A stretch of DNA of 64,000 nt, from NCBI RefSeq assembly GCF_010500815.1, contig NZ_JAAAMG010000011.1, positions 62,001 to 126,000 on the forward strand, in the 5' to 3' direction. The DNA is from Jiella pacifica (GTDB taxonomy: Bacteria; Pseudomonadota; Alphaproteobacteria; Rhizobiales; Rhizobiaceae). How positions within the stretch are numbered: position 1 is the first letter of the stretch; each line of letters opens with the position of its first letter. The notes under the pieces were generated by a model, which worked only from the letters and a program-made list of their open reading frames with translations, was not told the DNA's origin and did not search any database. Positions 39,758 to 63,836 of this stretch are shown piece by piece. A program made the translations under genes and the position numbers.

Positions 39758-39834
39758 GCGCCCGTAGCTCAGCTGGATAGAGCACCAGACTACGAATCTG
39801 GGGGTCAGAGGTTCGAATCCTTTCGGGCGCACCA
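39758..39834 (+). tRNA. tRNA-Arg (anticodon ACG)
   Basis: A complete 77-base cloverleaf. Acceptor stem GCGCCCG pairs with CGGGCGC, the D arm has GCTCAGCTGGATAGAGC, the anticodon stem CCAGA/TCTGG encloses CTACGAA with anticodon ACG, the T loop is TTCGAAT, and CCA is encoded. The wobble A is expected to be edited to inosine to read CGN codons. Confidence 0.97.
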
Positions 39835-42733: not shown

Positions 42734-43575
42734 GCCGGCTTGTCGCAAAGGGTCTGACGCGGCGCGCCGGCGGGCGGGCGATCGTCGACGGCGTGTCGCT
42801 CGAGCTCGTCGAGGGCGAGTTCCTCGCGCTCGTCGGACCGAACGGCTCGGGCAAATCGACGCTGATCTCGATGCTGGCGGGGCTGAAGCGGCCGCATGCG
42901 GGCGATGTGCGGCTCGGCGGGGCTCGTCTCGACAAGACCCCACGGCGCGACGTCGCCCGCGCCATCGCCGTCGTCGAGCAGCAGGCCGAGACCGGCGAGC
43001 GGCTGACGGCACGAGAAGTGGTGGCCCTCGGCCGCACGCCCCATCTCGGGGCCTTGTCCCCCTGGGGCGAAGAGGATGAAGCAGCGGTCGAGGCGGCGCT
43101 GGCCGCCGTCGACATGCTGCGCTTTGCCGATCGCGACTGGCACTCGCTGTCCGGCGGCGAACGCCAGCGATTGCACATCGCCCGGGCGCTCGCCCAGGAG
43201 CCGGGCATCGTCATTCTCGACGAGCCGACGAACCATCTCGACATCGAGCACCAGCTGGCGATCCTGGCGCTGGTCAAGGCGCGACGGATGACGGTCCTCG
43301 CCGCACTCCACGACCTCAACCACGCCGCCCTCTTCGCCGACCGGATCGCCGTCATGGATCAGGGCCGCCTCGTCGCGCTGGGCCGGCCGGGCGAAGTCCT
43401 GACGCCGGAGCGCATCGCCACGACCTTCAAGGTCGCGGCGATGATCGAGACGGCAGCGGACGGCGGCTGCCACATCCGCTTCATGCCCCTGCCCCACGGC
43501 TCCCAGCCTCCCAGCCGGCTGCCCGAAAGGCACGACAAGCCACGCGTGATCAACCTTCTTCACGGACGAGTCTAG
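42730..43575 (+). CDS. btuD: Cobalamin-type ABC transporter ATP-binding protein
   Basis: ATPase subunit of the importer, 281 residues. Walker A GPNGSGKST, Q-loop VVEQQAE, signature LSGGERQR, Walker B VILDEPTNHLD and the switch His in LHDLNHAA. Sequence families of haem, ferric-siderophore and B12 ATPases are close; the riboswitch favours B12. The C-terminal 35 residues are an extra basic tail. The stop TAG overlaps the stop of the convergent Lrp gene inside a CTAG. Confidence 0.9.
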   Translation: MSRLVAKGLTRRAGGRAIVDGVSLELVEGEFLALVGPNGSGKSTLISMLAGLKRPHAGDVRLGGARLDKTPRRDVARAIAVVEQQAETGERLTAREVVALGRTPHLGALSPWGEEDEAAVEAALAAVDMLRFADRDWHSLSGGERQRLHIARALAQEPGIVILDEPTNHLDIEHQLAILALVKARRMTVLAALHDLNHAALFADRIAVMDQGRLVALGRPGEVLTPERIATTFKVAAMIETAADGGCHIRFMPLPHGSQPPSRLPERHDKPRVINLLHGRV

Positions 43576-44054
43576 AAGGTTCGCGAAAGGCTCGATTTCA
43601 CCCGCCGCAATGGGATGGAGGACTCGATCCCCGCTACGCCTTCGATTTTGGTCAGGCGCCCGACGAGAAACGCTTCGAATTCGCGCATCGAGCGAGTGAC
43701 GACGCGCAGGAGATAGTCGCGATTGCCGGTCATCAGCCAGCAGTCGGACACTTCCGGCAGCCGCTTGATCGCCGTCTCGAACGTCGACAGTGCATGATCG
43801 ATCTGCCGATCGAGCTTGACCGAGACGAAAACCGCAACCTGAAAACCGAGCGCTTCCTCATCGATCAGGGCCGCGTAGCCCGTGATGATCCCAGCCTGCT
43901 CGAGCCGTTTGACCCTCCGCGCGATCGGCGTCGGGCTGAGGCCGATCTTTTCGCTCAACGCCTGAATGGACATGCGGCCATCAGCCAGGAACGCCCGGAG
44001 AATCTGGAGGTCGACCGCATCGATTTGAGAGGATTCAGACACGATTGCACCCAT
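43572..44054 (-). CDS. Lrp/AsnC family regulator next to E1 (MdeR-like)
   Basis: A 160-residue feast/famine regulator: winged-helix domain IDAVDLQILRAFLADGRMSIQALSEKIGLSPTPIARRVKRLE-type (DLQILRAFLADGRMS), then the ligand-binding RAM domain with VSDCWLMTGNRDYLLRVV. Divergent from the AceE-like E1 with 104 bases between starts. In Pseudomonas putida the Lrp-type MdeR sits beside mdeB, an E1-like enzyme for 2-oxobutyrate, so the same regulation is inferred here. Its stop shares CTAG with btuD. Confidence 0.88.
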   Translation of the reverse strand: MGAIVSESSQIDAVDLQILRAFLADGRMSIQALSEKIGLSPTPIARRVKRLEQAGIITGYAALIDEEALGFQVAVFVSVKLDRQIDHALSTFETAIKRLPEVSDCWLMTGNRDYLLRVVTRSMREFEAFLVGRLTKIEGVAGIESSIPLRRVKSSLSRTF

Positions 44055-44158
44055 TTGCAGCGATTACCAACAATATCACTCTCAGTCATAGCGAAAAAAG
44101 CCAGAAACCGCGCGCTCGTCACCACTATGCTGCATCGCGTATGTTTGGGGAGGAAAGC

Positions 44159-46549
44159 TTGGCTTCGATAGATCTGACGACGATCGAGCGCCGCCTGTTG
44201 TGGCTCTCGCATTGGATGATCCACCACGCCAACCACCTTCGGCCGAAGGTGGACGGCATCAAGGTCGGCGGTCATCAGGCGTCATGCGCCTCCATGGTGC
44301 AGATCATCACCGCTCTCTACTTCTCGGCTCTGAAGCCGGAGGATCGCGTCGCGGTCAAGCCCCATGCCTCCCCTGTCTTCCATGCCATGCAGTATCTGAT
44401 GGGGTTGCAGACGCGCGAGGCACTGGAAGCGTTTCGCGGGTTCGGCGGGGCGCAGAGCTACCCCAGCCGCACCAAGGACATCGACGACGTGGATTTCTCC
44501 ACCGGCTCGGTCGGGCTTGGCGTGGCGATCACCAGCTTCGCCTCGATCGTCCAGGATTACATCACCGCCAAGACCTGGGGCGCCGACGTGCCGCTCGGGC
44601 GCATGGTCGCCTTGGTCGGCGACGCCGAACTCGACGAGGGGAACGTCTACGAAGCCTTGCAGGAGGGGTGGAAGAACGACCTTCGCAACTGCTGGTGGAT
44701 CATCGACTACAATCGCCAATCCCTCGACGGCATCGTGCGTGAAGGCCTGTTCTCACGAATCGAGAAGATTTTCGCCGTCTTCGGCTGGGATGTCGTGCGG
44801 ATCAAGCACGGCGCCCTGCAGAGAGCTGCGTTCGCGGAGCCGGGTGGCGCCAAGCTGCGCGATTGGATCGATTCGTGCCCGAACCAGGACTATTCCGCCC
44901 TGACCTTCATGGGAGGCGCGGTCTGGCGCGGGCGATTGATGAACGATCTCGGCGATCAGGGCGACGTTTCGGCGCTGATCGACCGGCGCAGCGACGACGA
45001 ACTCGCCGACCTGATGGAAAATCTCGGCGGCAACTGCGTCACGACCATGGCCGAGACGTTCGCCGCGCACGACCATGAACGCCCGACCTGCTTCCTCGCC
45101 TACACCATCAAGGGCTGGGGCACGCCGATCGCCGGCCACAAGGACAATCACGGCGGCCTGATGACCAACGCCCAGTTCGACGCCTGGCAGGACCATATGG
45201 GCGTTCCGGCGGGGCAGGAGTGGGATCCCTACGCCACGATCGAGGATGTCGAAGCCTTCAAGTCGTCCCTTGGCGAGGTGCCGTTCTTCGCCAAGGGGCG
45301 GCGACGGTTCAAGGATGACAAGCTGGCGGTCCCGCCCGTGACTTCGCCGAGCGACAAAAGGATCTCGACGCAAGCCGCCTTCGGCAAGATCCTCGATGAT
45401 CTGAGCAAGGGTGACAGTGATCTCGCCCGGCGTATCGTCACCACCTCCCCAGACGTGACCGGTACCACCAATCTCGGCGCCTGGGTCAACCGGCGCAAGC
45501 TCTTCGCACGGGCGGAGATGGCAGACGCCTTCATCGAGCACAAGATTCCCTCGACGGCCAAGTGGAACTTCGCGCCCGACGGGCAGCATATCGAGCTCGG
45601 GATCGCCGAGATGAACCTTTTCCTGCTTCTCGGTGCGGCAGGGCTGTCCCATTCGCTGTTCGGCAGACGGCTGATCCCGATCGGCACGCTTTACGATCCC
45701 TTCGTGTGCCGCGGTCTGGATGCCCTGAACTACGCCTGCTATCAGGACGCCCGATTCATCGTCGTCGGCACGCCCTCGGGGGTCACCCTCGCCCCGGAAG
45801 GCGGCGCCCATCAGTCGATCGGCACGCCGCTGATCGGCATGAGCCAGGACGGCTTGTCGGCGTTCGAACCGGCCTTCGCCGACGAACTCGCCGTCATCAT
45901 GGAGTGGGCCTTCGAATATCTGCAACGGGACGGCGATGTCGGTCTGGACGAGCGGACCTGGCTTCGCGACGAGACCGGGGGATCGGTGTATCTGCGGCTG
46001 ACCACCAATCCCATCGAACAGCCAGGAAAACGGGTCGACGACGATTTCCGCCAAGGTGCCATCGACGGCGCCTACTGGCTGAAGAAGCCGGGACCGAACT
46101 GCGAGCTCGTGATCGCCTATCAGGGCGCGGTCGCCCCCGAGGCGATCAGCGCGGCCGGCGTCCTCGGAGAAGGCCGACGCGACATCGGCGTCCTCGCCGT
46201 CACCTCCGCCGATCGACTGAATGCCGGATGGCTCGCGGCCCAGCGGGCCAGGACGCGCGGCCAGCGGCAGGCCCTCTCCCATGTCGAGAGGCTGTTCGCG
46301 GATTTGCCGCGCCAATGCCACCTCGTCACGGTGATCGATGGACACCCGACAACGCTTTCCTGGCTCGGATCGGTCGCAGGTCATCGCACTCACCCGCTCG
46401 GCGTCGAACATTTCGGCCAGACCGGGACAATCGGCGATCTGTATCACCATTTCGCAATCGACGCCGCTGCGATCGTCGCAGCGGTCGACGGACTGACAGC
46501 AGGAAAACGGGTCGGCAACGGGCTCATGGCCCACACCGGCGCGTTCTGA
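44159..46549 (+). CDS. AceE/transketolase-like 2-oxoacid dehydrogenase E1
   Basis: Thiamine-diphosphate enzyme of 796 residues, of the homodimeric pyruvate dehydrogenase E1 type. ThDP motif VGDAELDEGNVYEAL to IIDYN, with VGGHQASCASM, SVGLGVAITSF and the transketolase-like second domain (HIELGIAEMNLFLLL; PSGVTLAPEGGAHQS). The nearest named relative by context is MdeB, an E1-like 2-oxobutyrate enzyme. The strongest ribosome site, GGGGAGG at 44147-44153, lies 5 bases before a TTG at 44159; ATGs at 44141 and further up (44045 is inside the Lrp start) lack one. No E2 or E3 is nearby, so they would be shared. Substrate is inference. Confidence 0.8.
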   Translation: MASIDLTTIERRLLWLSHWMIHHANHLRPKVDGIKVGGHQASCASMVQIITALYFSALKPEDRVAVKPHASPVFHAMQYLMGLQTREALEAFRGFGGAQSYPSRTKDIDDVDFSTGSVGLGVAITSFASIVQDYITAKTWGADVPLGRMVALVGDAELDEGNVYEALQEGWKNDLRNCWWIIDYNRQSLDGIVREGLFSRIEKIFAVFGWDVVRIKHGALQRAAFAEPGGAKLRDWIDSCPNQDYSALTFMGGAVWRGRLMNDLGDQGDVSALIDRRSDDELADLMENLGGNCVTTMAETFAAHDHERPTCFLAYTIKGWGTPIAGHKDNHGGLMTNAQFDAWQDHMGVPAGQEWDPYATIEDVEAFKSSLGEVPFFAKGRRRFKDDKLAVPPVTSPSDKRISTQAAFGKILDDLSKGDSDLARRIVTTSPDVTGTTNLGAWVNRRKLFARAEMADAFIEHKIPSTAKWNFAPDGQHIELGIAEMNLFLLLGAAGLSHSLFGRRLIPIGTLYDPFVCRGLDALNYACYQDARFIVVGTPSGVTLAPEGGAHQSIGTPLIGMSQDGLSAFEPAFADELAVIMEWAFEYLQRDGDVGLDERTWLRDETGGSVYLRLTTNPIEQPGKRVDDDFRQGAIDGAYWLKKPGPNCELVIAYQGAVAPEAISAAGVLGEGRRDIGVLAVTSADRLNAGWLAAQRARTRGQRQALSHVERLFADLPRQCHLVTVIDGHPTTLSWLGSVAGHRTHPLGVEHFGQTGTIGDLYHHFAIDAAAIVAAVDGLTAGKRVGNGLMAHTGAF

Positions 46550-46577
46550 GGCGGCAGCGCGAGCGTGGCTCGACGGG

Positions 46578-47396
46578 TCAAAAGACGTCGACGAGACGTG
46601 GGGCCTGGATCGAATTCGCCACTTCGATCAGCTTCGGCGCGATCGTGCGCCGGATCTGGTCCACGGACAGTTTGTGGCTCGAAAGCGAACACTGCACGCA
46701 TGCCACCGGGCGCCGATCACCATCGAGGATCGGCGCCGCCACGGCGATCTCGTTCAACAAGTTTTGGCTGTCGGTCAGCGCGTAGCCGTCAAGCGCCGCC
46801 CGACCGATCTCGGCGGCGAGAAGCCCTCTGTCGACGACCGTTTTGGCGGTGCGCGCCTCGATCCGCCAATTGGCGATGGCGGCTTCTCGCTCGCTATCCG
46901 GCAAAGCCGAGATCATCGCCCGCCCACCGGCACTCGTTAGCGCCGAAACGCGCCGGCCAGGGATGGTGGCCCCGATGGAGGTCAGCTGGGTTGGAATTCG
47001 GATGATATAGACGATGTCTTGCCCGAAGAGACGCGCGCAATTCACCCGCTCGCCGAGGTCGCGGCTGAGCTCGATCAGTTTCGGCATGGCAAGCGGCACC
47101 AGCGCATCCGACCACAGATAGGCGCTGCCGAACTCCAGCATCCTCAGCGTCGGACGATAGCGTTTCGTTTCGCGGTTCTTCCCCAGATAGCCGGTGCGGT
47201 GGAGCGTATTGGTCAGGCGTTGAGCCGCACTCTTGTCGAGTCCGGCCAGGCTGGCGATCTCGCCAAGGCTGAGATCCGTTCGCCCCTCACCGAAAACCGC
47301 CAGGACCTTCAGGCCTTTCGCCAGAGAGGCGACGAACAGCGTATCCTGCTTGGCGGGCTCGCCGGACCTGCTCATTTCCCAATCAGATTCCGCCAT
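46578..47396 (-). CDS. IclR family transcriptional regulator
   Basis: A 272-residue regulator with an N-terminal winged helix (FVASLAKGLKVLAVFGEGRTDLSLGEIASLAGLDKSAAQRL region, start SLAKGLKVLAVF) and a C-terminal GAF-like IclR effector domain with GAVILYIIR-type strands, GRRVSALTSAGGRAMISALP and VAAPILDGDRRPVACV. ATG at 47396 with GAGGAAG before it. It faces the ABC importer operon across a 148-base AT-rich gap and is probably its regulator. Convergent with the E1 gene. Confidence 0.9.
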   Translation of the reverse strand: MAESDWEMSRSGEPAKQDTLFVASLAKGLKVLAVFGEGRTDLSLGEIASLAGLDKSAAQRLTNTLHRTGYLGKNRETKRYRPTLRMLEFGSAYLWSDALVPLAMPKLIELSRDLGERVNCARLFGQDIVYIIRIPTQLTSIGATIPGRRVSALTSAGGRAMISALPDSEREAAIANWRIEARTAKTVVDRGLLAAEIGRAALDGYALTDSQNLLNEIAVAAPILDGDRRPVACVQCSLSSHKLSVDQIRRTIAPKLIEVANSIQAPRLVDVF

Positions 47397-47461
47397 TGAA
47401 CACTTCCTCGCCAAAACGGCTTGACAGCTGCAGATTATAAAATACGCTGAGTGAAAATAAC

Positions 47462-47472
47462 ATACGAAGTAT
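47462..47472. promoter_or_regulatory. Candidate operator between IclR gene and importer
   Basis: ATAC-GAA-GTAT is an exact palindrome inside a markedly AT-rich stretch (47440-47495) that also carries TTGACA at about 47442 and several TATA-like hexamers. It sits between divergent IclR and importer genes, where an IclR operator is expected. Short palindromes in AT-rich DNA arise by chance, so this is tentative. Confidence 0.4.
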
Positions 47473-47544
47473 CATAATGTAATATAACCCACAAAGGCAA
47501 GGTGTCTCATGTCCCATCTGCGTATTGGTCAAAGGAAACCCACG

Positions 47545-49056
47545 ATGCGTCTGGCGGGCCTTTCGTCGCTGGTCGCCGCGGCCCTTCTGGCCTCGACTTC
47601 GGCCTACGCCGGAAAGGCGGATGACACGTTGCACGTCGCCTTCACCAAGGAAGTCGAGAACGTCGATGTCTATTACACCACCGCCCGCGAAGGCTTGATC
47701 CTCAGCCATTCGATCTGGGACGGGCTGGTCCATCGAGATCCGGCTTCCGGCGACTATGTGGGAAACCTCGCGACCCAATGGCGCTGGGTCGACGACACCA
47801 CCCTGGAGTTCGATCTGCGCGAAGGCGTCAAGTTCCACAATGGCGAGCCGTTCGATGCCGACGACGTGGTCGCGACGGTCAATTACGTTGTCGATCCCAA
47901 GAATGGCGTAAAGGCCCCAAAGAACGTCAACTGGATGAAGTCGGCCGAGAAGATCGACCAGTACAAGGTCCGCATACACCTCGCCGCACCGTTTCCCGCA
48001 GCGCTCGAATTCTTGTCGAGCGTCGTCCCGATGTATCCGAACGAGTACTACGCCAAGGTTGGTTCGACCGGCATGGCGAAGCAGCCGGTCGGCACCGGGC
48101 CCTACAAGGTCGAATCCGTCGAGCCCGGCCGTCACTTCGTCCTGAAGAAGAACGAAGACCATTTCGGCGGCCCGAAGGCCGACGCAGCCATCGAGACGGT
48201 CGACATCCGGACCATCCCGGAGATCAATACCCAGCTTGCCGAACTTGCGACGGGAGGGCTCGATCTCATCTGGGGCGTTCCAACCGACCAGGCCCAGATG
48301 CTCGACGCCCAGGGCGGTTTTAACGTGGTCAACGAAGAGACGATGCGCGTCGGCTACATGACCATGGATGCCGCCAAGCGGACGTCCGGCGATACGCCGA
48401 TGGCGAACAAGAAGGTTCGCGAGGCGATCAATTACGCCATCGACCGCAAGGGCATCGTCGACGCCCTCGTTCAGGGGTCGTCGGAGGTGATCAACAGCGC
48501 CTGTTCGCCGATCCAGTTTGGCTGCGACCAGGATGTGAAGGTCTATGACTACGACCCTGAGAAGGCGAAGAAACTTCTTGAGGAGGCCGGTTATGGCGAC
48601 GGCTTCTCGATCGAGTTCTATGCGTATCGCGATCGGCCCTACGCCGAGGCCCTGATGAACAATCTGGCCGCCGTGGGCATCAGGACCAACCTCAACTTCC
48701 TGCAATACGCGGCCTTGGCCGACAAGGTTCGCCAGGATGGCATTCCCCTCGGGTTCATGACTTGGGGCTCGAACTCCATTGCAGACGTTTCGGCCATCTT
48801 GCCCGAATTCTTCGGCGGCGGCGGCCAGGACCAGTCCCGGGACGAAGAGGTCCAGAAGGCGATCGTGAGCGGCGACACGTCGATCGACAAGGACGCCCGC
48901 GCGAAGAGCTACTCCAAGGCACTGAACCGGATCGCCGACGAAGCCTACTGGGTGCCCCTGTGGACCTATGGGGCCTACTACGCGATGTCGCAGGACACGA
49001 ATTTCAAACCGACGTCCGACGAGATCGTCCGCTTCTTCGACGTGACGTGGAACTAG
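47545..49056 (+). CDS. Peptide/dipeptide-type ABC transporter substrate-binding protein
   Basis: Family 5 periplasmic binding protein, 503 residues. Signal peptide MRLAGLSSLVAAALLASTSAYA, then LSHSIWDGLVHRDPASG, DLREGVKFHNGEPFDADDVV, GTGPYKV and REAINYAIDRKGIVDALVQG, all typical. ATG at 47545 with AAGGA eight bases before; an in-frame ATG at 47509 adds 12 residues to the signal. First gene of the importer operon controlled from the IclR intergenic region. The family takes dipeptides, oligopeptides, glutathione, nickel and opines; the ligand here is unknown. Confidence 0.9.
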   Translation: MRLAGLSSLVAAALLASTSAYAGKADDTLHVAFTKEVENVDVYYTTAREGLILSHSIWDGLVHRDPASGDYVGNLATQWRWVDDTTLEFDLREGVKFHNGEPFDADDVVATVNYVVDPKNGVKAPKNVNWMKSAEKIDQYKVRIHLAAPFPAALEFLSSVVPMYPNEYYAKVGSTGMAKQPVGTGPYKVESVEPGRHFVLKKNEDHFGGPKADAAIETVDIRTIPEINTQLAELATGGLDLIWGVPTDQAQMLDAQGGFNVVNEETMRVGYMTMDAAKRTSGDTPMANKKVREAINYAIDRKGIVDALVQGSSEVINSACSPIQFGCDQDVKVYDYDPEKAKKLLEEAGYGDGFSIEFYAYRDRPYAEALMNNLAAVGIRTNLNFLQYAALADKVRQDGIPLGFMTWGSNSIADVSAILPEFFGGGGQDQSRDEEVQKAIVSGDTSIDKDARAKSYSKALNRIADEAYWVPLWTYGAYYAMSQDTNFKPTSDEIVRFFDVTWN

Positions 49057-49068
49057 GCCTCGCCTCTA

Positions 49069-49102
49069 CCCGGCGCAGCAGGAGCGAGACTTCTGCGCCG
49101 GG
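49069..49102 (+). promoter_or_regulatory. Intercistronic hairpin 1
   Basis: A perfect 10-bp stem CCCGGCGCAG/CTGCGCCGGG with a 14-base loop, 13 bases after the binding-protein stop. No U tract. In ABC importer operons a hairpin after the binding-protein gene commonly protects that part of the mRNA and raises its level over the permeases. Confidence 0.75.
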
Positions 49103-49129
49103 GCCCCTCGAGGCGAGGGTGCGCACCGC

Positions 49130-49158
49130 CGGCCCGCTGCTTTCGCGTGGGCGGGCCG
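49130..49158 (+). promoter_or_regulatory. Intercistronic hairpin 2
   Basis: A second perfect stem, CGGCCCGC/GCGGGCCG with 13 bases in the loop, 27 bases past the first. Also without a U tract. The first permease starts 67 bases later. Confidence 0.7.
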
Positions 49159-49225
49159 CACGAAACCGCTTTGGCAAACACCACCTCGATCCCTTGGATC
49201 GACAGCCTCGATCGGGCGAACCGAT

Positions 49226-50143
49226 ATGATGAGATTCGTCTTGAGAAAGATCGTCATGGCCGTTCTGGTCGCACTGACGGTCTCGATCATCAGCTTCAGC
49301 CTTCTTTATCTCTCTGGCGATCCGGCCGTCGCCATGGCCGGAGAAAACGCCGACGACGCGGCGATCCAAGCGATCCGTGAAGGCTACGGATTCGATCGGC
49401 CGTTCATCGTCCAGTATGGTGACTGGCTGTTCAGCGCCCTGAGGGGCGACTTCGGCGAAAGTTATTATTTCCGGGTGCCGGTGAGCGAAGTCATCGCCGA
49501 TCGCTTGCAGATCACCATGCTCCTCGGCCTCTTTTCGACCAGCTTCGCCCTGGTGGTCGCCATCCCGCTCGGGGTCGCCGCAGCGCTTTGGCCGAACTCG
49601 ATCATCGACCGTGCGGCGCTTTTCCTCAGCGTCGTCGGACAGGCCATCCCGAGCTTCTGGTTCGGGCTGATCCTGATCGTCATCTTCGCCATCGACCTGC
49701 GGCTTCTGCCGGCGTCGGGCTCGGGGACCTGGGCGGGCTTCGTGCTGCCGACTGTCGTGCTCGGCTACTACGCCACGCCCGCCATCATGCGCCTCACCCG
49801 CACCGGCATGCTGGAGGTGCTGTCCGCTGACTACGTCCGCACCGCCCGCGCCAAGGGGCTTCCCGCCCCCAATATCGTCTTCAAGCACGCGTTGCGCAAC
49901 GCCATCATCCCGGTCGTGAGCCTCGCCGCGGTCCAGATGGGGTTCATGCTCGGTGGGTCCGTGGTGGTGGAATCGGTCTTTGCGCTCCACGGCGCGGGAT
50001 ATCTCGCTTGGGAATCGATTTCCCGGAACGATCTGCCGACGATGCAGGCCTTGGTCCTGATCTTCTCGATGTTCTACATCGCGTTCACCATCCTTGCCGA
50101 CGTCGTGAATGCCTGGCTCGATCCGCGTCTGAGGGTATCCTGA
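49226..50143 (+). CDS. Dipeptide-type ABC transporter permease 1 (DppB-like)
   Basis: First membrane subunit, 305 residues, six membrane segments. Opens MMRFVLRKIVMAVLVALTVSIISF and has the DppB segment GDPAVAMAGENA; the ATPase-contact loop is SADYVRTARAKGLP with KHALRNAIIPVVS following. ATG ATG at 49226. Follows the two hairpins after the binding-protein gene, and ends 2 bases before the second permease ATG. Confidence 0.93.
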   Translation: MMRFVLRKIVMAVLVALTVSIISFSLLYLSGDPAVAMAGENADDAAIQAIREGYGFDRPFIVQYGDWLFSALRGDFGESYYFRVPVSEVIADRLQITMLLGLFSTSFALVVAIPLGVAAALWPNSIIDRAALFLSVVGQAIPSFWFGLILIVIFAIDLRLLPASGSGTWAGFVLPTVVLGYYATPAIMRLTRTGMLEVLSADYVRTARAKGLPAPNIVFKHALRNAIIPVVSLAAVQMGFMLGGSVVVESVFALHGAGYLAWESISRNDLPTMQALVLIFSMFYIAFTILADVVNAWLDPRLRVS

Positions 50144-50145
50144 TC

Positions 50146-51042
50146 ATGAGCGCCACGGCTTCCGCGCCCCTCTCCGGCAAAGCCCGTCTCACGCCCCGCC
50201 AGCGCTTTTGGCATCGAGCCCGACATCACCGCGGGTTCGTCTTCGGCGCCGTCGTACTGGCGACCATCGTCGCCGTCGCGATCTTTGCGCCGCTGATCGC
50301 ACCGCACGATCCCTATCTTCAAGTCCTGTCCGATCGGATGCAGCCGCCGGTGTTTCTCGGCGGCACCTGGCATCACCCGCTCGGCACCGATGCCCTCGGT
50401 CGGGATTATCTGTCCCGCCTGCTCTACGGCGCCCGCATATCGCTGCTGATCGGCCTCGTCGCCGCGACGATCTCGGCCGTCATCGGCACCACGCTCGGTA
50501 TTCTTGCCGGCTATTTCGGCGGCCGTGTCGATACGGTCGTGACCTTCCTCATCAATGTGCGCCTCGCCCTTCCGGTGGTGCTGGTGGCGCTCGCCGTGGT
50601 TGCGCTTCTCGGCGGCTCGCTCACGGTCGTCGTCTCGGTGCTCGGCCTCCTCTTGTGGGACCGCTTCGCCGTGGTGCTGCGAAGCGCGACGCGGCAGGTG
50701 CGGACCATCGAATACGTCGCGGCGGCAGAAGTTCTCGGCGCCAGCCTGCCGCGCATCCTCTACAAGGACATCCTGCCGAACATCGCGAACCATCTGATCG
50801 TCATCGCCACCCTGGAAATGGCGCATGCCATCATTCTGGAAGCCGCGCTGTCCTTCCTCGGTCTCGGCGTTCAGCCGCCACTTCCCTCCTGGGGCCTGAT
50901 GATTTCGGAAGGCAAGGCGATGCTCCTCTTCCAGAGCTGGCTGATCACCATTCCCGGCGTCGCCCTGTTTCTTCTGGTCCTGGCGATCAACATGTTCGGT
51001 GACGGCATCCGCGACGTGACCACGCCCGAAGGACGCGACTGA
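50146..51042 (+). CDS. Dipeptide-type ABC transporter permease 2 (DppC-like)
   Basis: Second membrane subunit, 298 residues. DppC pattern: a cytoplasmic start with RQRFWHRARHHRGFVFGAVVL, LIAPHDPY, HPLGTDALGRDYLSRLLYGARISL and the ATPase-contact loop IEYVAAAEVLGASLPRIL, then EAALSFLGLGVQPPLPSWG. The ATG at 50146 is 2 bases after the DppB-like stop. Its stop TGA shares a base with the ATPase ATG. Confidence 0.93.
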   Translation: MSATASAPLSGKARLTPRQRFWHRARHHRGFVFGAVVLATIVAVAIFAPLIAPHDPYLQVLSDRMQPPVFLGGTWHHPLGTDALGRDYLSRLLYGARISLLIGLVAATISAVIGTTLGILAGYFGGRVDTVVTFLINVRLALPVVLVALAVVALLGGSLTVVVSVLGLLLWDRFAVVLRSATRQVRTIEYVAAAEVLGASLPRILYKDILPNIANHLIVIATLEMAHAIILEAALSFLGLGVQPPLPSWGLMISEGKAMLLFQSWLITIPGVALFLLVLAINMFGDGIRDVTTPEGRD

Positions 51043-52709
51043 TGGCCGACGATCCCAGCAAAAACGATCCGATCCTCTCCATCCGCGACCTGACTGTGGC
51101 TCTGCCCGAGGGCGGCGACCGGCCGTACGCCGTCGAAGGGCTCTCTCTCGAGGTTCGGCCGCGCGAGATCGTGTGCATCGTCGGCGAGAGCGGATCGGGA
51201 AAGTCGATCACCGCCTTCACGACCATGGGACTGTTGCCCGGCGCACTTCGCCCCACCGGCGGAGAGCTGCGGTTCGAGGGACGTGACCTTCTGGCAATAC
51301 GGCGCAAGGAGCATGCGGCCCTGCGCGGCAAGAAGATCGCGATGGTGTTTCAGGAGCCGATGTCGGCGTTGAACCCCTGCTACATGGTCGGCGACCAGAT
51401 CGTGGAAGTCTTCGCAACGCACACGGCGCTGTCCAAAGCCGAGCGGAAAGCGAAAACCCTCGCTCTGATGGACGAGGTGAAACTGCCCGATCCCGAGCGG
51501 ATCTATCGCAGCTATCCGCACCAGCTCTCGGGGGGACAGCGACAGCGACAGCGCATCGTCATCGCGATCGCGCTCGCCCTCGATCCACGTCTTCTCATCG
51601 CCGACGAGCCCACGACGGCGCTCGACGTGACCACGCAGGCTCAGATCCTCCATCTGTTTGGCCAGCTGCGCGAGAACCACGACGCCGGCATCCTGTTCGT
51701 CACCCATAACTTCGATGTCGTTGCCGAAATCGCCGACCGCGTCGTGGTGATGGAAAAGGGCAAGATCGTCGAGGAAGGGCCTGTCGGCGACGTCCTGAAC
51801 CGCCCGCAGCATCCCTATACCCGGCTTCTCATTTCGGCCGTGCCGAAACGCCACCCTTCCCCGCGTGATGAGGTTTCCGGAAAAGCCATCGCCCTCAAGG
51901 TGGAGGGGCTGGAGAAGTCGTTCCGGTTGCCCGGCACCATGTTCAGGGAGGGGACGTCCATCAAGGCGGTGGCCCCGGCGAGCTTTGCCGTTCGCGAGAA
52001 CGAGACGCTCGGCATCGTGGGAGAAAGCGGATCGGGCAAGTCGACGCTCGTTCGCTGCCTCATCCGGCTGATCGAACCCAATCACGGTTCGGTCGAGATC
52101 GGCGGCGTGGACGTCGCGCGTCTCGACAAGCGGGCCTTTCGCATTCACCGAAAGGACATCCAGATCATCTTCCAGGATCCCTATGGCTCGCTCAACCCGC
52201 GCCGCACGGTGGGTGACCAGTTGATCGAGGGGCCGGTCAATTTCGGGGTGCCGCGCGAAACCGCCATCCAGCGCGCCCGCGAACTGATGCGGATCGTGCG
52301 CATGGACGAGGATGCGGTCCAGCGTTACCCGGTGCAGTTCTCCGGCGGCCAGCGCCAGCGCATCTGCATCGCCCGGGCCCTGGCGGTGGAACCCAAGATC
52401 CTGATCGCCGACGAAGCCGTCTCGGCCCTCGACGTCTCGGTGCAGAAGGAGGTTCTCAACCTCCTGAACGACATCAAGAAGCGCCTTGGCCTGACGCTTC
52501 TCTTCATCACTCACGATCTGCGGGTCGCAGGCGAGGTCTGCGACAACGTCCTCGTCATGGAGAAGGGCGAGATCGTCGAGCGCGGCTCGGTTGCCGAGGT
52601 CTTCGGAAATCCGCGCCATACCTATACGCGCGCGCTTCTGGACGCGATGCCCGGCAAGGGCTGGGACGTTCCGGATCTCTCCGCGATCGCAACGAGACCC
52701 ACGGCATGA
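51042..52709 (+). CDS. Dipeptide-type ABC transporter ATPase, two domains fused (DppD-DppF)
   Basis: A 555-residue fusion of two nucleotide-binding domains. Domain 1: Walker A GESGSGKSIT, signature LSGGQRQRQRI, Walker B LLIADEPTTALD. Domain 2: GESGSGKSTL, SGGQRQRICIARAL and ILIADEAVSALD, where the usual Pro after the Walker B Glu is Ala, as is common in this domain. Between them is the oligopeptide/dipeptide C-terminal RPQHPYTRLLISAVP motif. Overlaps the second permease by one base. Completes an importer with binding protein and two permeases. Confidence 0.94.
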   Translation: MADDPSKNDPILSIRDLTVALPEGGDRPYAVEGLSLEVRPREIVCIVGESGSGKSITAFTTMGLLPGALRPTGGELRFEGRDLLAIRRKEHAALRGKKIAMVFQEPMSALNPCYMVGDQIVEVFATHTALSKAERKAKTLALMDEVKLPDPERIYRSYPHQLSGGQRQRQRIVIAIALALDPRLLIADEPTTALDVTTQAQILHLFGQLRENHDAGILFVTHNFDVVAEIADRVVVMEKGKIVEEGPVGDVLNRPQHPYTRLLISAVPKRHPSPRDEVSGKAIALKVEGLEKSFRLPGTMFREGTSIKAVAPASFAVRENETLGIVGESGSGKSTLVRCLIRLIEPNHGSVEIGGVDVARLDKRAFRIHRKDIQIIFQDPYGSLNPRRTVGDQLIEGPVNFGVPRETAIQRARELMRIVRMDEDAVQRYPVQFSGGQRQRICIARALAVEPKILIADEAVSALDVSVQKEVLNLLNDIKKRLGLTLLFITHDLRVAGEVCDNVLVMEKGEIVERGSVAEVFGNPRHTYTRALLDAMPGKGWDVPDLSAIATRPTA

Positions 52710-52797
52710 ACAGCGCCGTGTCACGATGCCAGGCGATCCGAAAGACGGTATGCCGCTCGAAGGGCGACGCCGTCGCCGAAACGAAAGAGCAGATTTC

Positions 52798-54198
52798 ATG
52801 AGCCGAACAGCGGCCCTTGCCGAGGCCGAAGCCTATATCGCCGATGGTGGCTTCACCGCCGATCTCGCGACCCTGGTTCGCCGGCAGTCCGTCAGCCAGG
52901 ATCCGGCCTATTCGGACCAGTTGTGGGCCTATCTGCGGGACGACATGGAGCCACGTCTTCGCGCACTCGGCTTTGAAGCGCGGCTACACGACAATCCGAA
53001 ATCCGGCGGCGGCCCCATCCTCACCGCGAGCCGGATCGAGGACCGCGACAAGCCAACCGTGCTCATCTACGGCCATGGCGACGTGTGCATGCCGCAGGCG
53101 AGTGGTTGGCGCGAGGGCCTTTCCCCCTTCGATCTCGTCACGAAGGGCGAACGCCTCTACGGACGGGGAACGGCCGACAACAAGGGCCAGCATCTGGTCA
53201 ATCTGAAAGCGCTGGAATTCGTCCTCAGGACCCGGGGCTCGCTGGGCTTCAACGTCAAGATCCTTCTCGAGACCTCCGAAGAGACAGGCTCACGCGGCCT
53301 GAAAGCGTTTGCCGAGCAGAATGCCGACCTTCTGTCCGCCGATGTGCTCATCGCCTCGGACGGTCCGCGCCTTGCCGCCGATACGCCGACGATGTTCATG
53401 GGCTCGCGCGGCGGCCTCAGCTTCGAGCTCGTCGCCGAGTTTCGCAAGGGCGACGACCACTCGGGCAATTTCGGCGGGCTTCTCGCCGATCCCGCCATCG
53501 TGCTCGCCCATGCGCTGGCGACGATCACCGATGCCCGCGGCCAGATCCGCGTTCCCGAATGGCGGCCGACCTCGTTGACGCCGGATGTGCGGGCGGCGCT
53601 TCGCGATCTGCCGGTCGGCACAACGGGTCCCGAGATCGACACCGACTGGGGCGAGGAAGACCTGACACCGGCAGAACGGGTTTTCGGTTGGAACTCCTTT
53701 GCGGTCCTCGCGATGAAATCCGGCATTCCCGAATCGCCGCAGAACGCCATCGCCGGCAAGGCCGTTGCTCGCTGTCAGCTGCGCTACGTCGTCGGCACCG
53801 ACCGGGCGGATATTCTTCCGGCCCTTCGCCGGCATCTTGATCACCATGGCTTCGAGCGGATCGAGATCCGACCCGGCCGCGACGACGAGTTCGTCGCCAC
53901 GCGCTTCGGTCTCGACCACCCGTGGGTTTCCTTCGTCGCCCGATCGATCGAAACGACGACCGGCAAGCGGCCACACATGCTGCCCAATCTCGGCGGCTCG
54001 ATCCCCAACGACGTCTTTGTCGAGACCCTGTCACTTCCGACGGTCTGGCTGCCCCACTCCTATGCCGGCTGCTCCCAGCACGCCCCGAACGAGCACATGC
54101 TTCTGCCGGTCGCGCGGGAGGGCCTCGACATGATGATCGGTCTGTTTTTCGACATCGGCGACGGCGAGAGCGTTCCCCGCAGGGCCGCCGGTCGCTGA
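52798..54198 (+). CDS. M20 family metallopeptidase/amidohydrolase
   Basis: Zinc-dependent hydrolase of 466 residues cutting amide or peptide bonds next to a carboxylate. Metal ligands and catalysis: H93 and D95 in YGHGDVCMP, D127 in GRGTADNKGQ, E161/E162 in TSEETG, D188 in ASDGP, and the terminal HAPNEHML. The lid domain has DHSGNFGG. Resembles the carnosinase/ArgE-DapE side of the family. No signal peptide, so cytoplasmic. It begins 88 bases after the importer ATPase and 47 bases before the amidase, suggesting it processes what the importer brings in. Confidence 0.9.
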   Translation: MSRTAALAEAEAYIADGGFTADLATLVRRQSVSQDPAYSDQLWAYLRDDMEPRLRALGFEARLHDNPKSGGGPILTASRIEDRDKPTVLIYGHGDVCMPQASGWREGLSPFDLVTKGERLYGRGTADNKGQHLVNLKALEFVLRTRGSLGFNVKILLETSEETGSRGLKAFAEQNADLLSADVLIASDGPRLAADTPTMFMGSRGGLSFELVAEFRKGDDHSGNFGGLLADPAIVLAHALATITDARGQIRVPEWRPTSLTPDVRAALRDLPVGTTGPEIDTDWGEEDLTPAERVFGWNSFAVLAMKSGIPESPQNAIAGKAVARCQLRYVVGTDRADILPALRRHLDHHGFERIEIRPGRDDEFVATRFGLDHPWVSFVARSIETTTGKRPHMLPNLGGSIPNDVFVETLSLPTVWLPHSYAGCSQHAPNEHMLLPVAREGLDMMIGLFFDIGDGESVPRRAAGR

Positions 54199-54245
54199 GG
54201 CGCTCGTCACGAACGGTTCGAAATCGAACGTTGAAAGGCCATGCC

Positions 54246-55736
54246 ATGAACCCCTGCGATCTGACCGCCATGGACGCGCGTCAGGCGATCGCGCGCAAAG
54301 ACCTTTCGCCGGTCGAATATGCGAATGCGCTCATCCAGCGGACCGAGCAGGTCAACCACGCGGTGAACGCGGTCGTTGCCCATGACTTCGACCAACTGCT
54401 GGACGAGTCCCGAAAGGCCGAAGCGCTCGTCACGAAAGGCGGCGACCTCGGCCCGCTGCATGGCCTCGTCTTCGCCGTCAAGGATATGATCGACGTCGCC
54501 GGCTTGCCGACGACCTTCGGCTCGCCGCTGTTTGCAAAGAACATGGCGGCGAACGACGATCCGATGGTCGCGGCGATGCGCGCGGCCGGCGCCATGCCGC
54601 TCGGCAAGACCAACGTTCCCGAATGGAGCGCCGGCGGCAATACCCGCAACGCCGTCCACGGCGTCACGGCCAACCCATACGACCTGTCGAAGACCTGCGC
54701 GGGCTCGTCCGGCGGCTCGGCTGTCGCGCTCGCCTGCGGCATGGCACCGCTCGCGACCGGTTCGGATACCGGCGGCAGCCTGCGAAACCCAGCCGCCTTC
54801 TGTTCCGTCGTCGGCTTTCGCCCCTCGCCCGGCGTCGTGCCGGGAGAAAAGCGCGGCATCGCCGCACTGCCGCTGCCGACCCCGGGCCCGATGGCCCGCA
54901 CCGCAGCCGATGCCGGGCTGATGCTCTCCATTCTCGCCCGCCCGGACCGGCGCGATCCCTACACGGCGGTGATCGCCGGCAGAACTCTCTGGGATCCCTC
55001 CGGCTTTGCGAAACTGAAGCGGATGGATCTGGCAAAGCTCAGGATTGCCGTTACCGAGGATTTCGGCTTTGCTCCGACCGAAAGCATCGTGCGATCGACG
55101 TTTCGCCGGGCCATTGAGACGCTGTCTCCCGCGTTTCGCCAGATCGATGAAACGACGCCGGACTGCAGCGGTGCCGATCGCATCTTCTCCGTCCTCAGAG
55201 CGCTGATGTTCCTCGGCAATCACCATAAGATGGTGATCGAGACCCCGGATCAGGTGGGCCCGAACGTCACCGCCAATGTCGCGGAGGGTCTCGCCCTCGA
55301 CCCGTTGACGATCAGTGACGCCCTCACCCGGCACGGCGCCTATTACCGGGCGTGGCAGGCATTCTTCGAGACGACCGACTACATCCTCTGCCCGGCCGTC
55401 ACGGTGAGCCCGCGCCCCTGGACCGAACTCTACCCGGCAGAAATCGACGGTCGGGCGACGTCGAGCTATTATCACTGGCTGGCCATGGCCTACGCCTCGA
55501 CGCTGGCGGGCCATCCCTCGATCACCATTCCCTGCGGCCGGGACGACAAGGGCATGCCCTTCGGGCTGCAGATCATCGGCCGGCGTCACGACGATCATGG
55601 CGTCCTGTCGCTCGCGAGCGAACTCGAAGCCGTCATCGGCGGAACCAGCACGTTGCAGAACCCGCGGCCAAATCTCGCGGCCCTTCAGAGCGCCCCTCCG
55701 CTCAAGGAAGCGGAAGGCTTCTGGAATTTCGGCTGA
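54246..55736 (+). CDS. Amidase-signature family hydrolase
   Basis: A 496-residue serine hydrolase of the amidase-signature family. The Ser-cisSer-Lys triad is intact: K79 in FAVKDMID, S154 in CAGSSGGSAV and S178 in GSDTGGSLRNPA (nucleophile). Members split aryl- or alkyl-amides, N-acyl amino acids or the Gln in tRNA transamidation; the lack of GatB/C partners and the position after an M20 gene argue against GatA. Cytoplasmic. Last gene of the plus-strand importer operon, converging with acdS over a 23-base gap. Confidence 0.9.
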   Translation: MNPCDLTAMDARQAIARKDLSPVEYANALIQRTEQVNHAVNAVVAHDFDQLLDESRKAEALVTKGGDLGPLHGLVFAVKDMIDVAGLPTTFGSPLFAKNMAANDDPMVAAMRAAGAMPLGKTNVPEWSAGGNTRNAVHGVTANPYDLSKTCAGSSGGSAVALACGMAPLATGSDTGGSLRNPAAFCSVVGFRPSPGVVPGEKRGIAALPLPTPGPMARTAADAGLMLSILARPDRRDPYTAVIAGRTLWDPSGFAKLKRMDLAKLRIAVTEDFGFAPTESIVRSTFRRAIETLSPAFRQIDETTPDCSGADRIFSVLRALMFLGNHHKMVIETPDQVGPNVTANVAEGLALDPLTISDALTRHGAYYRAWQAFFETTDYILCPAVTVSPRPWTELYPAEIDGRATSSYYHWLAMAYASTLAGHPSITIPCGRDDKGMPFGLQIIGRRHDDHGVLSLASELEAVIGGTSTLQNPRPNLAALQSAPPLKEAEGFWNFG

Positions 55737-55759
55737 GCGGATCCGAGCGTCGCCGCGGC

Positions 55760-56773
55760 TCAGCCGTCCTTGTAGTAGTAGCTGTAACCGTTGAGGGCCG
55801 GCGCGCCGCCGAGATGGGCGTAGAGGACCTTGGAGCCTTCCGGGAAGAACCCCTTCTTGGCAAGGTCGATCATGCCCTGCATGGATTTTCCCTCATAGAC
55901 CGGATCGGTCATCATCGCTTCGGTGCGGGCCGCCAGCCGGATCGCATCGTTGGTCGCTTCGCTCGGTACGCCATAGGCCGGATAGGCATAATCGGGATTG
56001 ATGACGATCTCTGAATCCTCGATCTTGCGTCCCAGCTCGACGAGTTCGGCGGTGTTGTCGACGATCTCACGAACCTGCGCACGGGTCTGATCGGGCGTTC
56101 CCGAGGCGTCGATGCCGATCACCCGGTCCGCGCGACCATCGGCGGCAAACCCGACGACCATGCCGCCGAAGGTCGAGCCGGTCACGACGCAGACGACGAT
56201 ATAGTCGAACTTGAAGCCGAGTTCGACTTCCTGGCTGCGCACCTCTTCGGCAAAGCCGACATAGCCGAGCCCGCCATATTTGTGGACGGACGCGCCCGCC
56301 GGAATGCCGTAGGGCTTGCCGCCGGCGTCACGAACCGACTGCATCGCATTTTCCCAGCTCTCGCGGATGCCGATGTCGAACTCGTCCTCGACGAGCCGGG
56401 AATCGGCGCCCATCAGCCGGGTCAGAAGAATATTGCCGACGCGGTCATAGACCGCATCGTAATGCGGCACCCACTTCTCCTGGACCACCACGCATTTCAG
56501 CCCGAGTTTCGCCGCCGTCGCTGCGACCATACGGGTGTGGTTCGACTGGACGCCGCCGATGGAGACCAGCGTGTCGGCGCCGGAAGCCAGGATGTCCGGA
56601 ACGATATATTCGAGCTTCCTCAGCTTGTTGCCGCCGAAAGCCAAGCCGGAATTGCAGTCGTCACGCTTGGCGTAGACGTCGATCTTGCCGCCAATTGCGG
56701 CACTCAGACGCGGCAGATGCTCGATCGCCGTCGTGCCGAAGGTGAGAGGATAGCGCTCGAATTTTCCCAGCAT
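55760..56773 (-). CDS. acdS: 1-aminocyclopropane-1-carboxylate (ACC) deaminase
   Basis: PLP enzyme converting ACC, the plant ethylene precursor, to 2-oxobutyrate and ammonia. The 337-residue protein aligns with the Pseudomonas enzyme with one residue less at the N-terminus, and all diagnostic residues are present: PLP-Lys K50 in [10 protein letters not shown]77 in QSNHTR, and Y293, E294 and L321 (in DPVYEGKS and YAHLGG), matching K51, S78, Y294, E295 and L322. These separate true ACC deaminase from D-cysteine desulfhydrase. Divergent from acdR, whose product usually activates it. Confidence 0.95.
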
Positions 56774-56816
56774 GCCGATACTCCGTTTTGCGATACCGGA
56801 ACACTAGCATCTCGCA

Positions 56817-56842
56817 CTTGAAACGTGCTTTCGTTTTTCAAG
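56817..56842. promoter_or_regulatory. Candidate AcdR operator
   Basis: CTTGAAA at 56817-56823 and TTTCAAG at 56836-56842 form a perfect 7-bp inverted repeat with 12 bases between, in the 156-base gap between the divergent acdS and acdR genes. The arms are further flanked by GCA/GCA. Lrp-type proteins bind such spaced, AT-containing dyads, so this is the likely AcdR site. Confidence 0.55.
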
Positions 56843-56929
56843 CATAAATGCGCAGTTTGGTGATATTTCTGGCTCGATATGCCGTCTAAATCTCCAGGAA
56901 GAACGACTTGTTTGAAAGAATCTCTCACC

Positions 56930-57388
56930 ATGGGAATTGACCGGATCGACCGCAATATCCTGCGCCATCTGCAAAGCGACGGGCGGCTCTCGAACGCCGA
57001 GATGGCGACGCTTGTGAATGTCAGCCCCGCAACCTGCCACCGGCGCACCCAGCGCTTGTTCGACGAGGGATGGGTCAAGTCGGTCCGAGCGCAAATCGAC
57101 CCGGATCGTGTCGGCCTCGGCGCCGTGGTGATGGTCGGCGTGGTTCTCGACCGCTCGACCCCCGAGAGCTTTTCGGCCTTTGAGGAGGCCATCACCAAGC
57201 TCCCGGTCGTCCTCGACTGCCATTTGGTCGCCGGCGATTTCGACTATCTCTTGAAAATCCGAGTCCGCGACATGGCGGACTTCAATCGACTTCATGGTGA
57301 AACGCTGATCGCCTTGCCGGGCGTGCGACAGACGCGGACGTTCTTCGTCATGAAGGTCGTCAAGGATTCCGATCCTTTGGCGTTTTGA
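56930..57388 (+). CDS. acdR: Lrp/AsnC family regulator of ACC deaminase
   Basis: A 152-residue Lrp-type protein: winged helix IDRIDRNILRHLQSDGRLSNAEMATLVNVSPATCHRR region (start MGIDRIDRNIL), then the RAM domain with VLDCHLVAGDFDYLLKI and ALPGVRQTRTFFVMK. Divergent from acdS across a gap with an inverted repeat, the classical acdR-acdS layout in which AcdR activates acdS on binding ACC. ATG at 56930 is where the domain begins; a longer frame from 56879 adds 17 residues. Confidence 0.9.
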   Translation: MGIDRIDRNILRHLQSDGRLSNAEMATLVNVSPATCHRRTQRLFDEGWVKSVRAQIDPDRVGLGAVVMVGVVLDRSTPESFSAFEEAITKLPVVLDCHLVAGDFDYLLKIRVRDMADFNRLHGETLIALPGVRQTRTFFVMKVVKDSDPLAF

Positions 57389-57419
57389 AAAGAGTTTCCG
57401 CCGCTGCATGCGAGGATGA

Positions 57420-58970: not shown

Positions 58971-59510
58971 TCAATCCGGGACGATCGTGAATGCGAAGGC
59001 AGCACTCGGTACCGGCGATATCGAGGCGTGAAGACGGGCTCCCGCAAGCGCGTCGGCTTCGGCGCGATCGGCGAGTTCCTCCGGCGGCATGCCGATCGCA
59101 GCCTTGAAGGCCTGCGGGTATCGAAGCGCGCGAAGCAATCTCGCGGCCCGACTGGCGTGCCGTAAAGCAGGCACATCCTTTCCCTCCCGCAGCTTGACGC
59201 CAGCGGCGGAGAGGAGGATCAGCGCGTGCAGGAAGGTCCGCTGTTCGGGTGCCTCCCGAGAAGCCTGCCACAGGCCTTCCCACGCTTCGTGAGCTTCCCA
59301 GTAGTAGCCGAAATTGAAGAGATCGGCGCCCCATCGAAACGCCTCCGACCTCAGCACGGCATCCACACGCACCGCCGCGTCCGGCTCCGCGTCGTAGCTG
59401 TGGCCTTGCGGATGCCGCACGGGATGCGGAAATCGCCCGGGAAGATAGGCGTATGGCGGGAACGCGCGGTGAGGCAGAAGTCGCGGGCGGGGTCCGGAAC
59501 TGACCATCAT
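58971..59510 (-). CDS. DUF309 family protein
   Basis: A 179-residue protein with the DUF309 signature, a helical bundle: FNFGYYWEAHEAWEGLWQA (the H-E-x-W-E motif) and FLHALILLSAAGVKLREG. Function unknown in the family. The N-terminal 40 residues are Pro/His-rich (LLPHRAFPPYAYLPGRFPHP). The start is uncertain: two adjacent ATGs at 59510 and 59507 lack a clear ribosome site. Located after mfd on the same strand. Confidence 0.8.
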   Translation of the reverse strand: MMVSSGPRPRLLPHRAFPPYAYLPGRFPHPVRHPQGHSYDAEPDAAVRVDAVLRSEAFRWGADLFNFGYYWEAHEAWEGLWQASREAPEQRTFLHALILLSAAGVKLREGKDVPALRHASRAARLLRALRYPQAFKAAIGMPPEELADRAEADALAGARLHASISPVPSAAFAFTIVPD

Positions 59511-59650
59511 GGGCGTGAAACTACCGCGGCCTTCAAGGAAGACGAGTCGATGCACGATCAGGGCCAGCGCAATGCCGGTCCAGTTGGTCTCCCCAGACTG
59601 ATTTCGACGACTGGGCTGCGATTCGGTCTGCGCGGCCTCGTCCTCAAGGA

Positions 59651-63001: not shown

Positions 63002-63109
63002 GTCATGGCTCGGTCGGTGGTCGAAGGGCGTCTCTGCGGACGGGTGCTCCGCGCCGCCGGTTTGTTCGGCGGCAGGGGGCGGTTTTCAGCCAGTCCTGCG
63101 CAGCGGCGA

Positions 63110-63631: not shown

Positions 63632-63836
63632 GTGAGCTCCTCGTTCGACAATGTGCTGACGGGCCGTGGTTCGCATGCCGGCGACAAGAACAACAATCGG
63701 CGCAGGAAGCGTTCCGTGCGCACTCTCGTTCCGGCCGCACGAGGAGAATCGTCAGCCTGCCACGAATTTGGCGGCGACAAAAGCAGCGTATGTCGACGGC
63801 AGCCTGCAAACCCGAAGAGAGAGAGAGAGCGCAGTC
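63632..63836. other. Promoter gap before ferritin-like gene
   Basis: About 200 bases with a GA-dinucleotide run (GAGAGAGAGAG near 63820). It should hold the promoter of the ferritin-like gene. No gene seen. Confidence 0.4.

Follow-up and report, generated by a model that had tools for sequence, protein, structure and literature searches.

Why should a gene for 1-aminocyclopropane-1-carboxylate (ACC) deaminase, acdS, share one block of DNA with a complete dipeptide-type importer, an M20 metallohydrolase, an amidase and an enzyme distantly resembling a dehydrogenase-complex E1? The question is raised by positions 43.6 to 57.4 kb of the window analyzed here, a 64-kb stretch of contig C3 in the 5.77-Mb draft genome of Jiella pacifica. 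A sequence-only reading of this DNA had proposed a catabolic island for ACC conjugates, and our profile searches located every gene family that it had named.

Our best explanation, held with moderate confidence, is a predicted mosaic catabolic island in which an importer and hydrolases would take up and cleave amide conjugates, followed by AcdS and then by the E1-like enzyme. An Lrp-controlled, E1-like thiamine diphosphate (ThDP) enzyme and an IclR-controlled importer/M20/amidase module would have come to adjoin the acdR-acdS pair of the genus. Mechanistically, the importer would take up small amide conjugates, the M20 hydrolase and/or the amidase would cleave the amide bond, AcdS would deaminate the released or free ACC to 2-oxobutyrate and ammonia, and the E1-like enzyme would decarboxylate 2-oxobutyrate en route to propionyl-CoA. 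The gene families, the identity of acdS, the module edges and the recurrent acdS-E1 and acdS-importer-M20 neighborhoods form the sequence basis of this scheme, from which we infer the transport substrate, the acting hydrolase, the conjugate, the E1 acceptor and co-regulation.

Identity of acdS

The acdS gene (55760..56773, minus strand) encodes a protein that scores 551.3 bits with the ACC deaminase family TIGR01274, against a cut-off of 392. The accessible part of PMC4048297 lists Lys51, Ser78, a Tyr/Glu pair and Leu322 as ACC deaminase residues, and describes the E295S/L322T conversion; these residues separate ACC deaminase from D-cysteine desulfhydrase. The window protein keeps all of the listed residues, as K50, S77, Y293, E294 and L321 (UW4 numbering minus one). 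Assignment as a D-cysteine desulfhydrase was rejected, since these residues are intact and TIGR01274 is the best match; by curated cut-off and discriminating residues, the product is predicted to be a real ACC deaminase.

An acdR-like regulator, the second Lrp protein of the block (56879..57388, plus strand), is divergent from acdS and occupies the same position beside acdS in genus mates; the earlier pairing of acdS with acdR is confirmed. The arrangement resembles the acdR-acdS loci of Proteobacteria in its divergent Lrp regulator and TIGR01274 deaminase, and differs from them in its neighbors, the E1 gene and the importer/M20/amidase genes.

The E1-like enzyme and 2-oxobutyrate

The E1-like ThDP enzyme, a probable 2-oxobutyrate-using E1 of about 802 amino acids, is encoded at 44141..46549 on the plus strand (the start is an ATG chosen within a longer TTG frame that opens at 44045) and is divergent from an Lrp/AsnC regulator (43572..44054, minus strand). 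The window acdS lies 9.2 kb from it, on the opposite strand. The sequence-only reading had suggested that the two genes share 2-oxobutyrate, a proposal that the relatives strongly support, as their E1 often stands directly behind a gene for methionine gamma-lyase or acdS. Both lyases have 2-oxobutyrate as their common product.

We surveyed the neighbors of E1 in the best 80 loci of 467 relatives. Methionine gamma-lyase is encoded directly upstream of E1 in 38 of these loci and further upstream in another 14, ten of which carry an Lrp gene in between. Direct upstream placement of acdS was found in four (a Rhodospirillum and a Rhodobacteraceae metagenome-assembled genome, Salipiger bermudensis and Fertoeibacter niger), while 17 show a divergent Lrp gene alone, which is the window layout. 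The window Lrp is 56-68% identical to the E1-adjacent Lrp in most Lrp-E1 loci. Seven loci have neither lyase nor an adjacent Lrp, and ten neighbor proteins scanned from those seven and from other E1 loci revealed no common partner; five of ten upstream proteins scanned exceed a curated methionine gamma-lyase cut-off. Among 19 E1 loci of further relatives, acdS is directly upstream in three and methionine gamma-lyase in one, ten have an adjacent Lrp and five have none of these.

More acdS-E1 pairs were seen in genome G120, Salipiger abyssi and Paroceanicella, and in Ensifer adhaerens on three megaplasmid records by coordinates, one of them mapped. In genome G080 (L199, G080:C1, 5945-11700), acdR, acdS, Lrp, methionine gamma-lyase and E1 follow consecutively, uniting both 2-oxobutyrate-forming lyases with E1. 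In two Ensifer adhaerens loci (L192 and L249), acdS-E1 adjoins a different importer together with genes for a racemase, an amidohydrolase/deacetylase and a DgaE-like lyase; the E1 match in L249 was only a fragment.

In a tree built from 100 rows, the window E1 and the acdS-linked copy of genome G030 are sisters (87% identity, SH-like approximate likelihood-ratio test support of 100). The acdS-linked label requires seven changes on this tree, and at least five of the changes are forced by well-supported branches. The scattered acdS-linked copies may reflect repeated joining, losses, or both. The shared product of its lyase partners is the best evidence for 2-oxobutyrate as the substrate of this putative activity.

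The arrangement resembles mdeR-mdeA-mdeB of Pseudomonas putida, where an Lrp regulator, a 2-oxobutyrate-forming lyase and an E1-like gene lie together. Ruegeria pomeroyi DSS-3 has that very layout, with Lrp, methionine gamma-lyase and a window-type E1 in succession. The window differs from P. putida in that its E1 falls short of TIGR03186 and its lyase is acdS, 9 kb off and on the other strand; no methionine gamma-lyase gene was found in the window block.

The importer-hydrolase module beside acdS

The predicted complete dipeptide-type ATP-binding cassette (ABC) importer was confirmed, with all four components on the plus strand between 47509 and 52709: a family-5 solute-binding protein (47509..49056, PF00496, 279 bits), permease B (49226..50143), permease C (50146..51042, a chosen start within the profile-search frame 50008-51042) and a dual ATPase of GsiA/dipeptide type (51042..52709). 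Neither the binding protein nor the permeases reached an equivalog cut-off. Downstream on the same strand lie an M20 metallohydrolase of the PRK07079 subfamily (52798..54198; NF005478, 675.9 bits, cut-off 330), with intact metal-binding motifs, and an amidase-signature amidase (54246..55736; PF01425, 298.8 bits, gathering score 27), with intact Lys/Ser/Ser motifs; the motif residues of both are those we presume to be catalytic. The best amidase subfamily, NF005686, gave 382.7 bits, below its cut-off of 465.

Neighborhoods of this kind recur around acdS in other lineages. Several were examined because both genes were listed in one record, so that they establish the existence of the pairing and imply no frequency. 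In Pseudosulfitobacter pseudonitzschiae (two records viewed; 45 with acdS and 45 with M20 among the listings), malonyl-CoA decarboxylase and synthase, GntR, the importer, gamma-glutamyltransferase, M20, D-serine ammonia-lyase, amidase, RidA, a flavin adenine dinucleotide (FAD) oxidoreductase, acdR and acdS lie together. Plasmid pPABY5 of Salipiger abyssi has the importer ATPase (at the edge), gamma-glutamyltransferase, M20, TauE/SafE, D-serine ammonia-lyase, amidase, RidA, FAD oxidoreductase, acdR, acdS and E1. It thus resembles the window in joining importer ATPase, M20, amidase, acdR, acdS and E1, and differs in its extra gamma-glutamyltransferase, D-serine ammonia-lyase, RidA, FAD oxidase and TauE genes and in an acdS that adjoins E1. 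Paroceanicella profunda presents acdR, acdS and E1, with amidase, D-serine ammonia-lyase, TauE/SafE, M20 and the importer on the opposite strand.

Among Rhizobium plasmids, that of strain NIBRBAC000502774 carries importer, M20, TauE/SafE, amidase, FAD oxidoreductase, acdR and acdS, and that of R. lusitanum carries amidase, M20, importer, acdS, acdR, a malonyl-CoA synthase gene (861 bits, cut-off 558) and a gene whose product shares 46% identity with the malonyl-CoA decarboxylase of Pseudosulfitobacter. In Azospirillum B510, acdS is convergent with two M20 genes and the importer, and Pantoea At-9b has importer, M20, LysR and acdS. Importer and M20 lie beside acdS in genomes G246 and G153, M20 alone does so in G302, and G120 combines acdS-E1 with FAD oxidase, D-serine ammonia-lyase, TauE/SafE and an M20 fragment. 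In three loci of one genus (L232-L234), a dipeptide-type importer without a PRK07079-type M20 is convergent with acdS.

That acdS can have an M20 peptidase gene as its neighbor is already reported in the accessible part of PMC4048297 (2014), for two Actinobacteria and for some Proteobacteria, Pantoea At-9b among them. These loci of Saccharopolyspora, Streptomyces, Pantoea and others (with a major facilitator superfamily or LysR gene in some) share with the window an M20 gene near acdS, and in Pantoea At-9b the importer too; that part of the paper presents them without E1, amidase, malonate or a conjugate explanation. The importer module was at first considered unrelated to acdS, a view dropped after the loci in other lineages were found.

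Three modules in the genus

The genes are contiguous, as the sequence-only reading had it, but they form three sharp-edged modules and no single operon: Lrp-E1, IclR-importer-M20-amidase and acdS-acdR. Comparison of DNA with genus mates showed that the edges of these modules in the window coincide with separate modules there. The second module (46594-55736) matches contig C7 of genome G005 at 79-81%, and its IclR regulator (46578..47414, minus strand) stays with it in that genome; the third (55739-57395) aligns with acdS loci elsewhere in the genus at up to 87%, and in G004, G006 and G008 the match stops after acdS. Seven of ten genus genomes have acdS, and one other, G005, has an M20 above 80% identity, with a gamma-glutamyltransferase gene between the ATPase and M20. 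The acdS match in G001 (L089, G001:C1:207243-208254) consists of two overlapping pieces, perhaps a frameshift.

Because the modules are separate in genus mates, the island grew by module additions near the acdS of the genus and was not inherited as a whole within it. As expected for acquired DNA, the block has a lower G+C content (63.2%) than the stretches to its left (20000-43500, 67.6%) and right (59000-64000, 68.5%). A tRNA-Arg (acg) gene lies at 39758-39834, about 3.7 kb ahead of the block.

Frequency of the pairings and competing explanations

In a sample of 397 genomes of the order, acdS was found in 96, E1 in at least 183 and M20 (E values up to 1e-130) in 93. Chance was judged by a binomial estimate that excludes the window genome, takes 5.2 Mb for all genomes, treats them as independent (kinship ignored) and was made after the neighbors had been seen. 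On these terms, at least four of the 64 genomes for which both places were listed have acdS and E1 no more than 5 kb apart (0.12 expected; E1 numbers are lower bounds, as the E1 list was incomplete and its rows for genomes apparently outside both other lists were set aside), and four of 57 with acdS and M20 have these two within 20 kb (0.44 expected), while the control pair E1-M20 falls within distance in none of 56. E1 is adjacent in three and M20 in none of 19 relatives' acdS loci (some on short contigs), and 20 further acdS loci have neither, with dipeptide-type permeases in six. The order of genome G676 comprises 17 genomes, four with acdS.

Several observations weigh against reading the block as one catabolic unit. 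A full-length E1 occurs solely in the window genome among the ten of the genus; no E1 was found in G005, where acdS lies on a different contig from the importer module. The window block has no gamma-glutamyltransferase gene, its place in G005 and other relatives corresponding to 52709-52798, and no malonyl-CoA synthase gene, the sole over-cut-off copy of the genome (832 bits) being on C1. There is no E2 gene near E1 on C3, the three PF00198 places of the genome being on C56, C12 and C31. In only four of the 95 other acdS genomes in the order sample do M20 and acdS lie within 20 kb of each other; a PRK07079-type M20 appears in one (Azospirillum) of ten plasmid acdS loci chosen for species spread; and acdS is within 8 kb in three of 70 M20 loci of the order. 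On the E1 tree, shuffled labels give a mean of 6.9 changes, so that acdS linkage shows no clustering beyond chance, and losses as well as joins are possible. The expected synteny holds in part: the acdS-E1 and acdS-importer/M20 pairings recur elsewhere, while the whole set is not co-inherited within the genus. Likewise, the proposed link of importer and hydrolases to acdS recurs across lineages and layouts above the chance estimate, but it forms no genus unit and is rare in unselected samples.

The 70 M20 loci (the best-ranked of the order places, some on short contigs) show what else the hydrolase keeps company with. Within 8 kb, 49 of them have permease B, 19 an amidase, 17 a gamma-glutamyltransferase, ten an FAD oxidase, nine a D-serine ammonia-lyase, eight RidA and eight TauE, and none has E1 or malonyl-CoA synthase. 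With acdS in so few of them and amidase or gamma-glutamyltransferase in more, the hydrolase module evidently lives without ACC too; its core job is with the importer, often with D-amino-acid enzymes, and acdS is a repeated minority partner. A 25-row M20 tree contains a pure acdS-linked group, which is not evidence alone, as its rows were partly picked for acdS linkage. A TauE/SafE gene (sulfite exporter family) accompanies M20 in loci L219, L216, L205, L243 and L246. In Salipiger sp. CCB-MM3 (L243, 19133-19317), an N-carbamoyl-D-amino-acid hydrolase gene is near an importer-M20-D-serine ammonia-lyase cluster without acdS.

It is possible, if rather unlikely, that the importer, M20 and amidase serve D-amino-acid or gamma-glutamyl peptides, for instance of peptidoglycan or glutathione type, with acdS and E1 as neighbors that have a separate task. 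The D-serine ammonia-lyase, FAD oxidase, RidA, TauE/SafE exporter and gamma-glutamyltransferase genes of relatives, often with no acdS in reach, speak for this reading. The nearest solved structures of M20 are the carboxypeptidase Sso-CP2 and dipeptidases, including Cys-Gly and beta-Ala-His enzymes, and the importer is similar to Gsi. For the amidase, urethanases come closest among solved structures (185 bits), with malonamidase E2 more distant (89 bits). A separate task sits poorly with the presence of acdS beside the module in several lineages and layouts, and with M20-acdS neighborhoods in Actinobacteria too (accessible part of PMC4048297).

A second alternative, which we consider unlikely, concerns the last step: the E1-like protein could be another ThDP enzyme for 2-oxobutyrate, a decarboxylase, ligase or transketolase-like enzyme, and no dehydrogenase-complex E1. 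The earlier label "AceE-like" holds as a distant likeness, at 165.1 bits against the TIGR00759 cut-off of 859.9. The alignment with Escherichia coli AceE begins only at AceE residue 77, leaving no counterpart of the AceE N-terminus, the region that binds E2. TIGR03186 gave 149 bits (146.7 in a second scan) against a cut-off of 1408.3, a score that bears on MdeB only under our assumption that MdeB belongs to this family. With both curated cut-offs missed by far, identity with AceE or MdeB by family was rejected. In 27 of 27 aligned copies, a GHKDNHG (HKDNH) loop, which we take to be transketolase-like, replaces the AceE His407 loop, and databases name these proteins "transketolase" or "1-deoxy-D-xylulose-5-phosphate synthase N-terminal domain-containing protein". 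The lack of a nearby E2 points the same way, except that P. putida MdeB presumably also has no adjacent E2; and AceE Lys392, Glu571, Tyr599 and His640 all have counterparts in the alignment (numbering counted by hand). The E1 of a Cypionkella metagenome-assembled genome (L183, 8801-12376) is a 1191-codon open frame with an extra N-terminal part without a Pfam match.

Finally, an accidental mosaic of three unrelated modules in an acquired, gene-rich stretch would fit the sharp edges, the occurrence of each module alone in genus mates or the order and the lack of nearby E1 and M20 at most sampled acdS loci, but it is improbable given that acdS-E1 and acdS-M20 proximity, and not that of E1-M20, exceeds the simple chance estimate (which ignores relatedness, uses one genome size and is post hoc).

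ACC conjugates as candidate substrates

Returning to the mosaic catabolic island, the D-serine ammonia-lyase, FAD amine oxidase, RidA and gamma-glutamyltransferase genes carried by the module in relatives point to D-amino-acid and ACC conjugates as its probable substrates. Such compounds exist in plants: in the parts of the sources available, a plant N-malonyltransferase accepts ACC and D-amino acids including D-Met (PMC6921899), ACC is also conjugated by gamma-glutamyl transfer (PMC5827301, PMC4227472), and an N-malonyl-ACC hydrolase is reported with its gene not identified (PMC4227472). A search of the open literature, with subscription journals mostly outside it, found no account of bacteria using ACC conjugates and none of an acdS-E1 pair.

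N-malonyl-ACC is the boldest substrate candidate. Two lineages, P. pseudonitzschiae and R. lusitanum, have malonyl-CoA synthase and decarboxylase genes beside acdS and M20, which is what use of N-malonyl-ACC would need; these genes are common in rhizobia. A malonyl-CoA synthase gene near acdS-E1 in G030 was considered as a third case and judged weak, since its other neighbors look unrelated. The suggestion of the sequence-only reading that the hydrolases could free ACC from malonyl- or gamma-glutamyl-ACC thus gains circumstantial support from the gamma-glutamyltransferase, malonyl-CoA synthase and decarboxylase genes of relatives.

Carried further, and doubtful as a whole, is the proposal of an undescribed class of loci for plant and algal ACC conjugates. 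Here the importer would admit N-malonyl-ACC as well as D-amino acids in N-malonyl or gamma-glutamyl form, the missing N-malonyl-ACC hydrolase would be either the PRK07079-type M20 or the amidase, AcdS would open ACC and a new ThDP subfamily would make propionyl-CoA from 2-oxobutyrate, with some members using the malonate through malonyl-CoA synthase and decarboxylase.

Among the main traits of plant-growth-promoting bacteria is ACC deaminase, discussed in the available source text for free ACC only, and plants keep much of their ACC as N-malonyl-ACC (accessible part of PMC4227472). The loci described here connect both AcdS and methionine gamma-lyase with a single E1-like enzyme, and they supply two candidate hydrolases and one importer for the use of conjugates. 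If the proposal is true, bacteria could tap the stored ethylene precursor of plants.

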